From Thermaerobacter sp. PB12/4term (lineage in GTDB: Bacteria; Bacillota; Sulfobacillia; Thermaerobacterales; Thermaerobacteraceae): DNA of 64,000 nt. The stretch is taken from positions 248,001-312,000 of the forward strand of contig NZ_CP048407.1 in NCBI RefSeq assembly GCF_003403315.2. Direction: 5' to 3'. Below, one piece after another: positions 2,048-8,332 of this stretch (position 1 is the first letter of the stretch; every line of letters starts with the position of its first letter). The translations under genes were made by a program, and so were the position numbers. The notes under the pieces were generated by a model. That model was given only the letters and a program-made list of their open reading frames with translations. It ran no database searches and was not told where the DNA came from.

Positions 2048-2698
2048 TCAGGAAAGGGCCTCCTTGATCAACGCCAGCAGGTGCGGTTCCGGCGCCGCGC
2101 CTTCAACGGCAGCCGACCCGTTCACCACGGTCTTGGGAACACCGAAGACCGCGAACCGGTTGGCCAGATCGGGGAACTCCATGGCCTCGATGGCGTCAGC
2201 CCGCACCCGGTCGCTGGCGAGGGCCATCTTATGAGCCAGGCGGACCGCCCGGGGACAGTACGGTCACGTCGGCGTGACGAACACCTGCAGGTGGACGTCG
2301 GTGTCCAGCGACCGCAGGTACGCCTCGGTTTCCGGGGACAGCCCCGCGACACCGCGGGAGACGTCGACGATGTCGTCGATCAGCGTCCCGAACTCGTAAC
2401 CGGCCGGAATGCCGTAAAACCGCATCCCGGTGTCGCTGCCGTCCGCCCGGGCGAACAGGATGGCCGGGACCATGTCGACGCCGTGGCGCTCGGCCAGCTC
2501 GGGTTCCAGGTCGACATCGTGGACCTCAAGGGTGATGCGGTCGTCGAGCTCCGCCACCGCTTCCAGCAGCTGGCGGGTGTCCTCGCAGTAGGGGCACTCG
2601 TCTTTGTCTGCGCGGACGAACAGCTTGAGGACCACCGGTGATTCCATCGCCTCAAAGCGCCGCTGGATCTCCCGCCGGTCCTGATCGGAGATCTTCAT
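2048..2698 (-). CDS. tandem-thioredoxin-fold protein disulfide oxidoreductase, probable selenoprotein (in-frame TGA at 2264-2266)
   Basis: A PDO/glutaredoxin-like protein of two thioredoxin folds (216 residues if TGA is read through; family usual about 215-230). The first fold has C35-P-Y-C38 and the cis-proline P78 (DMVPAI). The second has x145-P-Y-C148 after FVTPT and the cis-proline P188 (FGVPKT). Codon 145, where the family has the attacking cysteine, is TGA. The frame stays open and homologous for 71 more codons to a true TGA at 2048. ATG 2698 follows a full AGGAGGTGA site. These are observations. Reading the TGA as selenocysteine is inference, supported by its exact position and by the hairpin just after it. 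The alternative is a TGC/TGT-to-TGA nonsense mutation giving a 144-residue one-domain product. An inverted repeat of GGGATCC (2720-2743) lies in the 5' leader. The neighbour upstream on the same strand is a CoA-disulfide-reductase-like flavoprotein, a plausible electron donor. Confidence 0.82.
2232..2266 (-). promoter_or_regulatory. candidate bacterial SECIS element following the in-frame TGA
   Basis: Read on the minus strand, the RNA starts with UGACC, which can pair with GG(C)UCA at 2237-2232. The apical hairpin is GGC-GGUCC-GCC at 2249-2239, extended by CC/GG across a small internal loop. GGUC in the loop begins 18 nt after the UGA. In the E. coli fdhF SECIS the comparable GGUC loop starts about 19 nt after UGA. 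The pairing was done by eye; no energy calculation was made. Confidence 0.5.
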
Positions 2699-2895
2699 CT
2701 CTTTCGTCACCTCCTCTCGGGGATCCCTCTCTTCGCGGATCCCGGGAGCCCCGGCCGGGCGGCGCGCCTGCCCGGTGATCGCCGAACACGCACCGTCCGA
2801 CCGGAAACCTTCAAAACCAGTGAAACCAGCGCTCTCTCGGGAACAGTGTGCCCGCCTGCCGGGGCGACCGGCTGCATGCACCGTCGGAGACGCAT

Positions 2896-4275
2896 CTAGT
2901 CCGACACGCCCCGGATGGCGTTCATGGCCTGGCGTGCGGCCACCAGCACCGGATCCCACACGGGCGCGAAGGGGGGTGCGTAGGCCAGGTCCAGTTCGTA
3001 GAGCTGGTCCACCGTCATGCCTGCATGGAGGGCCGCCACCAGCGTGTCGATGCGCAAGACGGCGTCGACCGGTCCCGCCATCTGGGCGCCCAGCAGGCGG
3101 CCGTCAGGCCCGTGGACCAGCCGGACGTGGAGCTTGCCGGCACCGGGGTAGTAGTGGGCGCGGGAGCCGTGGCGGATCGTCGTGGCCCCGGCCTCCAGGC
3201 CCGCCAACGCGGCCTCGCGGGCGGTCAGACCCGTACGGGCGACGCCCAGGTCGAATACCTTGACGATGGCCGTACCCAGTACCCCGGGGAAGCGGGCGTG
3301 GCCGCCGGCGGCGTTCTCGCCGGCCACGCGCCCCTGCTTGTTGGCCGTGGTACCGAGGGGAATGTAGGCGCGCCGGCCGCTGACCCGGTGGACGGTGTCG
3401 GTGCAGTCGCCGGCGGCATAGACGGACGGGTGCGACGTGCGCATGAACTCGTCCACCTTGATCGCCCGCCCGGCGCCCAGCTCGATGCCGGCCGCCTCGG
3501 CCAGCTCGGAATTGGGCCGCACGCCCACGGCCACCAGGACCAGATCGGCCGGCAGGGTGCGGGCGTCGGTGTCCAGCGCCCGCACGCGGCCACCGTCGCC
3601 CAGCACGGCCCGCGCCCCCTCGCCCAGATACAGCGCCACACCGTGACGGCGCAATTCATCGTGGACCAGCTCGGCCATCTCCCGGTCGAGGTTGGGCATG
3701 ACCTGGGGGAGACGCTCGACGATGGCCACCTCCATGCCGACGGTGACCAGGGCCTCGGCCATTTCGAGCCCGACGTAGCCACCGCCGATGACGACCGCCT
3801 TGCGTCTCTCCTGGGCCACCAGGGCCCGGGCGTGCTCGCGGATGGCGATGCCGTCCTCGACCAGCCGCAGGAAATGGACACCCTTCAGGTCGAGGCCGGG
3901 AATGGGCGGCTCGACGGGGCGGGCGCCCGTGGCGAGGATCAAGGTGTCGAACTCCACCTGCCGCTGGCGCCCGGTCACGAGGTCGCGTACCTCCAGGTAG
4001 TGTTCGTCCGGATGAATGGCCGTGACCTCGTGCTGGACGTGAACGGCGATGTTGCGTTTCTGGCGGAAGAACTCCGGAGTGTAGACCACCAGCTCGCCGG
4101 GTTCGCGGATCAGGCCGCCGACGAAGTAGGGCAAGCCGCAAGAGCCGTACGAGACGAAGCCGCTGCGCTCGAACACCTCGATCTCCAGGTCAGGATCGAG
4201 GCGACGCGCCCGGGAGGCGGCGCTCATGCCGGCCGCGACGCCCCCGACCACCACCAGGCGCTTTCTCCGGGACAT
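2896..4275 (-). CDS. FAD-dependent pyridine nucleotide-disulfide oxidoreductase, CoA-disulfide/polysulfide reductase type
   Basis: A 459-residue flavoprotein of the CoADR/NADH oxidase/Npsr group, which uses NAD(P)H to reduce CoA disulfides, persulfides or polysulfide. The N-terminal FAD motif is VVVGGVAAGMSAA (8-20). The single redox cysteine is C46 in YGSCGLPYFVGG, as in CoA disulfide reductases. The NAD(P)H-binding motif is VIGGGYVGLEMAEAL, and the second FAD segment is YAAGDCTDTVHRVSG. Tyrosines typical of the C-terminal dimer domain are present near DLAYAPPFAPVWDP. ATG 4275 follows CAGGAGATGG. The gene lies in the same direction as the DUF302 and ArsR genes upstream and the disulfide oxidoreductase downstream, consistent with one thiol-redox unit. 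A rhodanese domain, fused in some relatives, is absent here. Confidence 0.88.
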   Translation of the reverse strand: MSRRKRLVVVGGVAAGMSAASRARRLDPDLEIEVFERSGFVSYGSCGLPYFVGGLIREPGELVVYTPEFFRQKRNIAVHVQHEVTAIHPDEHYLEVRDLVTGRQRQVEFDTLILATGARPVEPPIPGLDLKGVHFLRLVEDGIAIREHARALVAQERRKAVVIGGGYVGLEMAEALVTVGMEVAIVERLPQVMPNLDREMAELVHDELRRHGVALYLGEGARAVLGDGGRVRALDTDARTLPADLVLVAVGVRPNSELAEAAGIELGAGRAIKVDEFMRTSHPSVYAAGDCTDTVHRVSGRRAYIPLGTTANKQGRVAGENAAGGHARFPGVLGTAIVKVFDLGVARTGLTAREAALAGLEAGATTIRHGSRAHYYPGAGKLHVRLVHGPDGRLLGAQMAGPVDAVLRIDTLVAALHAGMTVDQLYELDLAYAPPFAPVWDPVLVAARQAMNAIRGVSD

Positions 4276-4385
4276 GGTCCACCATCTCCTGTGGGCTCGG
4301 GGCGGCGGCGGGTACGCTGGGCCGCTCGCCCCGCATCGGTCCCCACCGGCGCGGCCTGGCCGCCCCGGAAAAGGATGCGGCGGCC

Positions 4386-4787
4386 TCAGCGGGCCGCCGC
4401 ATCCACCACCGCGCGCAGCTCCTGTTCCACCTCGGTCGCCAGGTCACGAAACCGCTCGTCGCCCAGCAGGCCGATCAGCGTCTGCGGGCGCAGCAGGCCG
4501 ATCTTCGTGCGGTTGCCGTCGTTGCGGTCGGCGTACACCACGATCTTGCAAGGCAGCAGGTAACCGACCTTCTGATCGGTCTCTAGGGCCTGCTTGGCCT
4601 TGGCAGGATTGCAGACCTCGAAGATGTGGAACTCGGGTTCGAGGTGGAAGCCCTTCTCTTGCAGCTTCTCGTTGACGTGCAGGTGCCAGAGGGCGCTGAA
4701 CTTCCGTTCCGCCAGCGCGGACTGCAGCGCTTGGATGGCCTCGTCCACCGGCTTGTCCGTGGCCACCGTGTAGTCCAGCTCCGCCAT
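4386..4787 (-). CDS. DUF302 domain protein
   Basis: A 133-residue soluble protein matching the DUF302 family through most of its length: an N-terminal YTVATDKPVDEAIQALQSAL segment, a central HIFEVCNPAKAKQAL, and LLPCKIVVYAD before a C-terminal helix. The biochemical role of DUF302 is unknown; members often sit with sulfur-oxidation or thiol-redox genes, as here. Two cysteines (in FEVCNP and LLPCKI) sit at positions common in the family. ATG 4787 follows GGAGGGAT at 7 bases. The gene is between the ArsR repressor gene and the flavoprotein gene, same strand. Confidence 0.85.
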   Translation of the reverse strand: MAELDYTVATDKPVDEAIQALQSALAERKFSALWHLHVNEKLQEKGFHLEPEFHIFEVCNPAKAKQALETDQKVGYLLPCKIVVYADRNDGNRTKIGLLRPQTLIGLLGDERFRDLATEVEQELRAVVDAAAR

Positions 4788-4954
4788 CGCCGATCCCTCC
4801 CTGCGGTTCCCGCCTGCGCTGGGCCCTGACCCGTTCGGCTGATGCGTCAACGGGCCGGTGGGCCCGGTTGGGGTTGTGCGGCGTTGACCTGCTCGGTGCG
4901 GGGCGCCGGCGTGCTTGGGCAGCCCCGCAAAGCCTGGCGTACGGGTTCGCCTCG

Positions 4955-5320
4955 TCACGGCTGCCCGGGTTGCGGACCGGCGCCGCTCTGAGCGGCCAGC
5001 ATCGCACTGCGCCGCAAGTGCTCGAGGAGCACGTGGCGAACGGCCTGGCACGCTTCCAGGATCTCGCGCGAGGCGAGCCGGTAATACACGTTGAGCCCTT
5101 CCTTCCGCGACTCCACAAGTCCGTACTGGCGCATGAGGGCCAGGTGCTGGGAGAGGTTGGCGGTGGTGGTGTCGACGACCCGCGCCAGCTCACCGGCCGT
5201 CATCTCACCGCCGGCCAGGGTATACAGAATCTCCAGGCGCTTGGGGCTGGCCAGCACATGACAGAGTCGCGCCTGCAGCTCCAGCAACTGCTTTTCCGTG
5301 TCCGTCCGCTCCGCAGTCAT
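4955..5320 (-). CDS. ArsR/SmtB-family transcriptional repressor, probable thiol/persulfide sensor
   Basis: A 121-residue winged-helix repressor. The core runs from about residue 13 to 90 with the recognition helix in TTTANLSQHLALMRQYGLV and the wing in ESRKEGLNVYYRL. Classic metal-site motifs (ELCVCDL, DxHxxxH) are missing. Two cysteines, C20 (RLCHVL) and C91 (EACQAV), are available. Known persulfide sensors of this family (SqrR, BigR, YgaV) also use a cysteine pair, although not at identical places. The gene is divergent from the rhodanese operon and has its own promoter with TAAG...CTTA repeats near the start. This suggests it represses both arms. That it senses sulfane sulfur is inferred from context. 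Confidence 0.85.
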   Translation of the reverse strand: MTAERTDTEKQLLELQARLCHVLASPKRLEILYTLAGGEMTAGELARVVDTTTANLSQHLALMRQYGLVESRKEGLNVYYRLASREILEACQAVRHVLLEHLRRSAMLAAQSGAGPQPGQP

Positions 5321-5666
5321 GGGCTACCGCTTCCCCGGCTCCTTGCTAAGTAACTTCTTAACTACTCCCAATATGATCCCCCATGCGCCCGCTGTCAAGT
5401 CGATCTTCTCCTGCGCCCCGGCACGTCATCCGGATCACGGCGGGCGCACCGCGTGCCCCCGGCCCTACCCGGCGCGCGGTCCGGCTGGAACGGCCGGCAC
5501 GAATCCGCATGGGGGTTGCACGCGGGGCAGGCACCTCGTAAACTGGTTGCTAGTTTCAGTAGTTGCTTAATCTCAAATAAGAATAGGCGTCATCCGGCTG
5601 AGCCCGGCAGGGTCGCCAGCAGGCGCCCCGGACCGCCGGTCCGGCCGGGGCCAAGGGGGGAACACC
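5321..5666. promoter_or_regulatory. divergent regulatory region with repeated AGTAGTT/TAAG half-sites
   Basis: This 346-base gap separates the two arms of the sulfur locus. It contains two AT-richer patches. Near 5346-5366 the sequence TAAGTAACTTCTTA is an inverted repeat (TAAG..CTTA) followed by ACTACT. Near 5547-5583, AGTAGTTGCTTAATC precedes AAATAAGAATAG. The heptamer AGTAGTT occurs at both, in opposite orientation (reverse complement AACTACT at 5359-5365; direct copy at 5559-5565). This is what two operators for one divergent repressor would look like. A -35-like TTGCTA (5547-5552) and a -10-like TAATCT (5568-5573) could form the plus-strand promoter, but the spacing is short (15). Confidence 0.5.
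5370..5398 (-). promoter_or_regulatory. sigma-A promoter of the arsR arm
   Basis: On the minus strand a perfect -35 TTGACA (5398-5393) is followed after 17 bases by CATATT (5375-5370, four of six matches). The predicted start falls about 40 bases before the arsR ATG at 5320, inside the putative operator. Confidence 0.65.
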
Positions 5667-6008
5667 ATGGCGATGCGCGCTCCGTGGCCGGACACCGTCA
5701 CGCCCGAGGAGCTGCGCCGGCGGCTCGAGGCGGGCAACGCCCCGCTGATCGTCGACGTACGCGAGCCCGACGAGTACGCCGGCGGGCACATCCCGGGCGC
5801 GCGGTTGCTCCCGCTGGGGCAGGTACCCATACGGTACCGGGAGTTGCCGTCCGACCAGGAGATCGTCCTCGTCTGCCGGAGTGGGAACCGCTCCGGCCTG
5901 GCCCAGCAATGGCTGCAGGGGATGGGTTTCCGCAACGTCCGCAACCTGGTGGGCGGCATGCAGCGGTGGAAGGGCCCGGTGGAATACGGCCCCGGGCGGG
6001 GTCGATGA
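5667..6008 (+). CDS. single-domain rhodanese sulfurtransferase
   Basis: A 113-residue rhodanese. Conserved VDVREPDEYAGGHIPGA (29-45) leads to the catalytic loop C70-RSGNRS, where the cysteine carries persulfide sulfur. GGMQRWKGPVE at the C-terminus is typical. ATG 5667 follows CCAAGGGGGGAA. It is the first gene of the plus-strand arm. The next gene starts 15 bases after its stop, so the two are likely co-transcribed. Likely role: accept or donate sulfane sulfur with the downstream rhodanese-MBL and TusA-rhodanese proteins. Confidence 0.9.
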   Translation: MAMRAPWPDTVTPEELRRRLEAGNAPLIVDVREPDEYAGGHIPGARLLPLGQVPIRYRELPSDQEIVLVCRSGNRSGLAQQWLQGMGFRNVRNLVGGMQRWKGPVEYGPGRGR

Positions 6009-6022
6009 GGGGAGGGACAGAG

Positions 6023-7234
6023 GTGGACCCAAGGACGCGTACTCCCTCGGAAATCGATGCCGCTGAGCTCAAGCGGATGCTGGACCGGGGCGAAACCCCG
6101 TTCCTGATCGATCTCCGCAATGACGAGGAGTTTCGCCGCTGGCGGATCGAAGGCCGCCAGCCCCTGCAGATGATCCACGTGCCGTACTACGAGATCCTGG
6201 CCGAGGCCGAGGAAGACGACCTCATCGCATCCGCCAAGGCCTACGCGCGCCGGCACTGGGTGGACCACCTGCCCCGGGAAGGGCGGATCGTGGTCGTGTG
6301 CGCCCACGGCGGCACCTCCGGGTATGTGGCCCAGGGGCTCCGCGAGCTGGGCTATGACGCCGTCAGCTTGCGCGGCGGTATGATCGCCTGGGGCGACCAC
6401 TACGAGTTTGTCCCCGTGGTGGAGGAAGAAGGCCTTGCCGTTTATCAGATCAACCGCCCGGCCCGCGGCTGCCTGAGCTATCTGGTGGCCTCGGAGGGGG
6501 AGGCGGTGATCATCGACCCCCTGCGCCACGCCGAGCGCTACCTGGAGTTCTCGCGCCGGCACGGCCTGACCATCACGCGGGTCCTGGACACCCACGCCCA
6601 CGCCGACCACATCAGCAGTGGCGCCGAGCTGGCAGAACAACTGGGCGTGCCCTATCACCTGCACCCCTACGACGCCATTCACCCCATGGACGTGTTGCCC
6701 GCTACCTTCCGCTACCAGCCGGTGTACGACGGGCAGGAGTTCCGTGTGGGCCGTGCCACCTTGCGTGCAATCCATGTGCCCGGCCACACCCTGGGCCAGG
6801 TGGTCTACCTGCTGGACGGTCGCTACCTGTTCAGCGGCGACACCATCTTCGTGGAGTCCATCGCCCGACCGGACCTGGGTGGCCGGGCCGAGACCTGGAC
6901 GCCCCTTTATTACCGGTCCCTTCTGCGCCTGATGGAACTGCCTGACGCGACGCTGGTTCTTCCCGGGCACTTCAGCCGGCCGCAGGAGGCGGACGCCCGC
7001 GGCCGCGTCGCCGGTACGCTGGGCGACCTCAAGCAGTCGAACGAGGGCCTGCAGGCCCTGGCAGCGGGCGAGCGGGCCTTCGTCGACTTCATCATGGGCC
7101 GCTTGCCGGAGTTCCCGCAGCAGTACGTGGACATCAAGCGGGTGAACACCGGTTTGCTGCGGCCGAGCGAGGAGCAGGCGTCCGAGCTCGAACTGGGGCG
7201 CAACGTCTGCGCGCTGGCGGAAGAAGCGGCCTGA
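6023..7234 (+). CDS. rhodanese-metallo-beta-lactamase fusion, persulfide dioxygenase type
   Basis: A 403-residue fusion. Residues about 10-135 form a rhodanese domain with catalytic C93 in VVVCAHGGTSG. The rest is an ETHE1/glyoxalase-II-like MBL domain with H191-A-H193-A-D195-H196, then HVPGHTLGQ, FSGDTIF and LPGHF. Enzymes of this family oxidise glutathione or CoA persulfide to sulfite with O2 (persulfide dioxygenase); the rhodanese part can move sulfur on or off. In CstB/PRF-type fusions the domains may be in the other order, so the N-terminal rhodanese is worth noting. GTG 6023 follows GGGAGGGAC at a good distance; an upstream open extension in this frame overlaps the rhodanese gene and is not used. 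Sulfite made here could leave by the TauE-like exporter. Confidence 0.88.
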   Translation: MDPRTRTPSEIDAAELKRMLDRGETPFLIDLRNDEEFRRWRIEGRQPLQMIHVPYYEILAEAEEDDLIASAKAYARRHWVDHLPREGRIVVVCAHGGTSGYVAQGLRELGYDAVSLRGGMIAWGDHYEFVPVVEEEGLAVYQINRPARGCLSYLVASEGEAVIIDPLRHAERYLEFSRRHGLTITRVLDTHAHADHISSGAELAEQLGVPYHLHPYDAIHPMDVLPATFRYQPVYDGQEFRVGRATLRAIHVPGHTLGQVVYLLDGRYLFSGDTIFVESIARPDLGGRAETWTPLYYRSLLRLMELPDATLVLPGHFSRPQEADARGRVAGTLGDLKQSNEGLQALAAGERAFVDFIMGRLPEFPQQYVDIKRVNTGLLRPSEEQASELELGRNVCALAEEAA

Positions 7235-7249
7235 GGGAGGGAGTCGTCC

Positions 7250-7858
7250 GTGAACGCTACGTTCAAGCCGAGCGCCACCGTGGATGCCCGCGGCCTTTCC
7301 TGCCCGTTGCCGATCGTGCGGGCGCGCAAGGCGATCGATGCCCTGCAGGTCGGGGAGATCCTCGAGGTGCTGGCGACCGACAAGGGCGCACCTGCCGATT
7401 TCCGGGGCTGGTGTGAGCAGACGGAGCACAAGTTCCTGGGCGTGGTGGAGGACGAAGGTTTCCTCCGGCTGTATGTCAAGAAGCTGGTCCCGGAAACCAA
7501 GGAGAAGGGACAGCTCTTCGAGCGCGAGATCAGCAGCCAGGAACTGGCCCGGCGCCTCGAGGCCGGGGACACGCTGACCGTTCTCGACGTGCGGGAACCG
7601 GAGGAGTACGAGGCCGGCCATATCCCCGGTGCCCTCTCCGTACCCATCGAGACGCTGTCCGAGTTTGCCGCCAAGCTCGACCGCACGGCGGAGATCGCCG
7701 TGGTCTGCCGCAGCGGCCGCCGCAGCGCCTATGGCTGCCGCATCCTGCAACAGGCCGGCTTCGAGAAGGTGGTCAACGTCGTGCCGGGCATGTCCGCCTG
7801 GTCGGGCCCGGTCGAGCAGGGCGGTGCCGGGGCTGCCCCGGCACCGGCATCCCGCTGA
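7250..7858 (+). CDS. TusA-rhodanese fusion sulfurtransferase
   Basis: A 202-residue two-domain sulfur carrier. Residues about 8-80 match TusA/SirA: VDARGLSCPLPIVRARKAID, with C18 in the CPxP motif, then an ATDKGAPADFRGWCEQT segment. Residues about 95-195 are a rhodanese with VLDVREPEEYEAGHIPGAL and catalytic C153 in VVCRSGRRS. TusA passes persulfide sulfur between proteins; the fusion would couple it to a rhodanese. GTG 7250 lies 15 bases after the previous stop with GGGAGGGAG in front. It sits directly before a DsrE-like gene, repeating the TusA-Rhd-DsrE combination of sulfur oxidisers, here in fused form. Confidence 0.9.
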   Translation: MNATFKPSATVDARGLSCPLPIVRARKAIDALQVGEILEVLATDKGAPADFRGWCEQTEHKFLGVVEDEGFLRLYVKKLVPETKEKGQLFEREISSQELARRLEAGDTLTVLDVREPEEYEAGHIPGALSVPIETLSEFAAKLDRTAEIAVVCRSGRRSAYGCRILQQAGFEKVVNVVPGMSAWSGPVEQGGAGAAPAPASR

Positions 7859-7933
7859 CGTCACGCCGGCATTCGGGTGCCACGGGTCAAAACGGGCTTC
7901 CGGCACGGCGAAATCAGGAGGGAGGGGTACGCG

Positions 7934-8332
7934 GTGTCCGTCCGTCGCGTGGCCATCATCGCCAGCCACGGGAACATCGACGACGCGTACAAGGTGCTGA
8001 ACATCGCCACGGCAGCTGCCGCCATGGGGGCGGAGGTCCAGGTCTTCTTCACCTTCGATGGCCTGAAGATCATCCATAAGGAAGCGAACCGGCAGTTGCC
8101 GGTGCCGGAGCACCTGCAGCCGGCGCTGGAGGGCTTCAAGAAGAACAACGTGCCTTCGGTGCCTGAGCTGCTGGAGATCGCCAGGGAATCGGGAGTCAAG
8201 CTGATCGGCTGCCAGATGACCATGGACGTCATGGGCATCGGCCTCGACGAGCTGGTGGACGGGGTCGAGCCTGGTGGCGCGGCCACCTTCCTGGCCTTTG
8301 CGGCCGAGGCCGACGTCAACGTCACCTTTTGA
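7934..8332 (+). CDS. DsrE/DsrF-like (DsrE2-type) sulfur carrier
   Basis: A 132-residue DsrE-fold protein. It opens with VAIIASHGNIDDAYKVLNIATAA and carries VFFTFDGLKII, both typical of DsrE2/DsrE3 proteins. A single conserved cysteine lies in LIGCQMTMDVMG, the usual persulfide-carrying position. The best start is GTG 7934, after CAGGAGGGAGGG; the longer open frame back to 7877 lacks a ribosome site. Unlike many DsrE2 proteins it shows no long N-terminal membrane segment. It probably exchanges sulfane sulfur with the TusA-rhodanese protein encoded 75 bases upstream. Confidence 0.85.
   Translation: MSVRRVAIIASHGNIDDAYKVLNIATAAAAMGAEVQVFFTFDGLKIIHKEANRQLPVPEHLQPALEGFKKNNVPSVPELLEIARESGVKLIGCQMTMDVMGIGLDELVDGVEPGGAATFLAFAAEADVNVTF

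Follow-up and report, generated by a model that had tools for sequence, protein, structure and literature searches.

The window analyzed here, a stretch of 64,000 nucleotides, covers positions 248001–312000 of the 2.82 Mb genome of Thermaerobacter sp. PB12/4term (one contig of 2,820,915 bp). On its minus strand lies a gene for a 216-aa member of the protein disulfide oxidoreductase (PDO) family containing, with TGA translated as U, a selenocysteine (Sec) (2048..2698; ATG at 2698–2696, terminal TGA at 2050–2048). A strong Shine–Dalgarno sequence, GAGGAGGTGA (2707..2716, minus strand), was read directly 8 nt 5′ of the ATG, and a gene for a flavoprotein lies directly upstream on the same strand. 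Between the PDO gene and a convergent methyltransferase gene, we also observed a perfect 13-bp inverted repeat (GACAACCCGCCGG ... CCGGCGGGTTGTC; 1991–2029) without a T run, which is possibly a bidirectional terminator. The plus-strand reading of 2048–2698 gave no meaningful protein.

Both thioredoxin-fold domains of the predicted protein carry a redox motif. The first, C35PYC38 (2585..2596, minus strand, read from the translation), lies in the N-terminal domain, and the second, U145PYC148, stands in the frame as TPT-U145-P-Y-C148, with the in-frame TGA (2264..2266, minus strand) at the attacking position and 71 codons after it, including the cis-proline P188 within VFGVPK. In a profile search, residues 5–213 matched positions 2–208 of the 209 in TIGR02187 with 269.8 bits (cut-off, 185 bits), and the Pyrococcus PDO 1a8l aligned with the protein from end to end (E 8.3e-52), U145 falling on the first Cys of its TPTCPYCP. 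The sequence-only reading had described a two-domain PDO-like protein with a TGA precisely at the attacking cysteine and a frame that continues through the cis-proline and 71 further codons to a normal stop. All of this held in our comparisons, with two refinements: the minus strand has to be specified, and the frame does close there, but the closing codon is itself a TGA. Two other assignments were considered and rejected. The single-domain glutaredoxin model (PF00462) covers residues 139–194 only, while the whole protein is a PDO, and AhpF (TIGR03140) scored 71 bits against a cut-off of 503, the flavoprotein fusion being absent.

Decoding machinery and conservation of the TGA column

One rival reading needs no selenium: through readthrough or an altered genetic code, the TGA could be translated as Cys or Trp. 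Readthrough of UGA does occur among bacteria, and a PDO with Cys at this position would still work. Against such a reading, the same genome holds the full Sec machinery, for which the sequence-only reading had proposed a search: a tRNA-Sec with a TCA anticodon (82.2 bits), selA (578 bits), selB, and a selD with an in-frame TGA of its own (402.6 bits). Furthermore, the gene itself ends in a TGA that acts as a stop, selA co-occurs with the TGA-containing PDO, and the alternative at the column is always Cys, the residue that Sec replaces. We consider decoding without selenium very unlikely.

Two more Sec-PDO paralogues are present in the same genome, both on the minus strand (G000:C1:1919614-1920321, L086; G000:C1:2618453-2619235, L087), with UPHC at the second site, CPGC or CPRC at the first and a longer linker; L087 immediately precedes lepA. 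Formate dehydrogenase was considered as a further Sec protein of the genome and rejected, since its single match lacked a TGA and fell under the cut-off.

A single-protein search of genome contigs gave four relatives only and was replaced by a family search over 154 genomes of the class. A strong PDO match was obtained in 88 of these genomes, and 74 of the 88 have a TGA-containing PDO. The TGA is kept in all three other Thermaerobacter genomes, that is, in 4/4 of the genus, and stops inside PDO matches of this 154-genome search were, among the matches listed, always TGA, with no TAA or TAG. Among the loci fetched from the family search, the column holds TGA in 64 distinct gene contexts and TGC or TGT in 18; these contexts include Chloroflexi genomes with U, as well as one Thermoflexus and one spirochaete genome with C. 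A tree calculated with the Sec column left out requires at least 12 Sec/Cys exchanges, so that the U/C exchange for which an alignment of homologues had been suggested is plainly there. Within one genus, the PDO likewise occurs both with Cys and with Sec (L058 in G061, L065 in G062 and L059 in G032), the DNA being near-identical just past the codon.

The presence of selA follows the same division: it was found in 70 of the 74 genomes with a TGA-containing PDO compared with 8 of the 14 Cys-only genomes (Fisher p 8e-4, from counts that are not phylogenetically independent). A tRNA-Sec is present in two of the four TGA-PDO genomes without selA, and one of the four is a draft of 63% completeness. 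For G104, a 97%-complete draft with a TGA-containing PDO (G104:C5:5868-6488, L132), searches for selA and tRNA-Sec found neither, possibly because of missing contigs or a recent loss of Sec decoding.

These data bear on whether the gene is a pseudogene, cut by a nonsense mutation so that only the first domain is made. The TGA does interrupt the PDO frame, but it is shared by all four genomes of the genus and stands at the same column across dozens of genera, and neither TAA nor TAG takes its place among the matches listed. Compared with the copy of T. marianensis, the most distant member of the genus, dN/dS is 0.11 in the part 5′ of the UGA and 0.14 in the part 3′ of it, the latter at a dS of 0.39. 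The codons 3′ of the UGA are thus, as judged from substitution patterns, under purifying selection, and such a low ratio indicates that the sequence past the UGA is translated and serves a function. A pseudogene is extremely unlikely. An error of sequencing or assembly at 2264–2266, the true codon being TGC or TGT, would agree with Cys as the alternative letter in relatives; yet three further species of the genus, each assembled independently, have TGA here too, and the hairpin that follows it is of the Sec type. The chance of such an error is negligible.

The hairpin after the UGA

On the minus strand at 2236..2252, a bSECIS-type hairpin, CCGGGCG-GUC-CGCCUGG, can form a stem of 7 pairs (−10.5 kcal/mol for the isolated hairpin), with a loop that begins 17–18 nt past the UGA. 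The hairpin noticed in the sequence-only reading thus exists, and the apical loop GUC contains a G, as the bSECIS criterion asks. A stem of this length arose in 3.3% of synonymous resamplings of the gene, which is only mildly unusual, and the UGA region folded no better than its shuffles; the hairpin argument therefore rests on the comparison of relatives.

In that comparison, all six of six hairpin pairs were found in 49 of the 64 Sec contexts but in 1 of the 18 Cys contexts (p 5e-8; the counts are not phylogenetically independent). The Sec genes had a mean of 5.30 pairs compared with 4.03 in synonymous resampling (sd 0.12, maximum 4.42 of 2000), whereas the Cys genes showed no excess over resampling (3.56 vs 3.61). 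Pairing fell from 88% to at most 53% when the partners were slid. Some Sec genes without the exact stem show a shifted or compensated one, such as CAGGGC-GGUC-GCCCUG or CCGGCCGC-GGC-GCGGCUGG. About 4 of 7 independent supported tree pairs show the hairpin tracking Sec, and none shows the opposite, a number too small for significance. Taken across relatives, there is strong evidence that the hairpin tends to be kept with Sec and degraded with Cys.

Two observations stand beside this pattern. One Cys PDO (L082, G122:C128) retains the full Sec-type hairpin and looks like a recent Sec-to-Cys change. In the genus and its family, the Sec paralogues (five contexts) lack the canonical hairpin (best stem, 4 bp) and may use another SECIS layout.

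The frame, the family, the Sec machinery, the U/C exchange, the hairpin conservation and the purifying selection form the computed basis on which we assign the gene, and it almost certainly encodes a tandem-thioredoxin PDO in selenoprotein form, with Sec at position 145. Going by what is known of such families, a complex of SelB, GTP and Sec-tRNA(Sec) would bind the hairpin 17–18 nt past the UGA and bring about the insertion of Sec at 145, and the terminal UGA, in another context, would serve as a stop. The selenolate of Sec145 would then attack the substrate, a disulfide or a persulfide; Cys148 would resolve the intermediate as a selenenylsulfide, for whose re-reduction either a flavoprotein reductase or the Cys35/Cys38 pair in the first domain could serve.

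Gene neighborhood and probable role

The flavoprotein gene directly upstream (2896..4275, minus strand) encodes a CoA-disulfide-reductase-like protein with Pyr_redox_2 and dimerisation domains and the motif GSCGLPYF, the Cys form; it scored 452 bits against TIGR03385, under the model cut-off of 579. Beyond it, on the same strand, lie a DUF302 protein and then an ArsR-type regulator, and the divergent genes encode rhodaneses, a rhodanese/metallo-hydrolase, a TusA-rhodanese and a DsrE2-like protein. Some families of this sulfane-sulfur cluster have Sec forms elsewhere; in the window (2896–8332, flavoprotein through DsrE2-like protein), the open frames of the cluster carry no TGA. The flavoprotein adjoins the PDO in 3 of the 4 genomes of Thermaerobacter and likewise in G007 and G143, which are more distant, and it was not found in the examined flank of the T. 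marianensis PDO.

What might the protein do? It is most likely a thiol/selenol disulfide or persulfide reductase, and that it takes part in reducing disulfides or persulfides can reasonably be inferred. More tentatively, the gene neighborhood suggests that the adjacent flavoprotein could be its partner and electron donor and that low-molecular-weight (per)disulfides could be its substrates, although we regard this pairing as possible rather than probable. It is speculative, and on balance doubtful, that the three Sec-PDOs are main selenium users of Thermaerobacter besides selD, with the window copy and the flavoprotein forming a selenium-dependent relay for CoA-(per)disulfide reduction within the sulfane-sulfur cluster.

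Thermaerobacter has been described as strictly aerobic and thermophilic. Because the Sec-PDO is widespread in the class, with repeated Sec/Cys exchange, the family offers a good system for asking why bacteria, a strict aerobe included, keep or drop selenocysteine. Furthermore, a gene that simple gene calling would truncate is here very probably a working selenoprotein.

Comparison with known selenoproteins and PDOs

A search for papers on Thermaerobacter together with selenocysteine found none in the collection covered. The family, on the other hand, is not new. The sequence-only reading had treated a two-domain PDO with Sec in its active CxxC as apparently undescribed, and this does not stand: a 2006 survey gave, for Carboxydothermus and Symbiobacterium, Sec forms of a "homolog of AhpF, amino-terminal domain", the only two Sec-PDO cases in it (PMC1794560), and reviews of 2022 and 2026 count TIGR02187, with the motif UxxC, among the Sec families (PMC9312934, PMC13188914). 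The NCBI name of the TIGR02187 model is PDO_seleno_TRX. Consequently, the warning that ordinary gene calling would miss the catalytic domain applies to pipelines without selenoprotein handling and not to current NCBI annotation, whose model knows Sec. The Sec-PDO is thus already known, and the Thermaerobacter gene adds a new member.

The closest known system is the Sec form of that AhpF N-terminal homolog (ABB15282.1 of Carboxydothermus, and Symbiobacterium thermophilum), with which the window PDO shares TIGR02187 and UxxC. It differs from it in belonging to another genus, in having UPYC rather than UPRC or UPHC, in lying beside a CoA-disulfide-reductase-like gene and in being one of three copies in its genome; within the searched class, G028 has a PDO copy with UPRC. 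The Cys PDOs of Pyrococcus furiosus (1a8l) and Aquifex (2ayt/2ywm) share the two tandem thioredoxin folds, a redox motif in each and the end-to-end alignment, but have Cys at the attacking position of the second site, where the window PDO has Sec. The N-terminal domain of AhpF is likewise a tandem thioredoxin-fold unit, one that is fused to a flavoprotein reductase, whereas the window PDO, far under the cut-off of that model, stands alone. Finally, the Sec-containing single-domain thioredoxins and glutaredoxins have UxxC and the thioredoxin fold in common with the window PDO (PMC13188914), but they form separate families (PF00085 and PF00462) with one domain instead of two.
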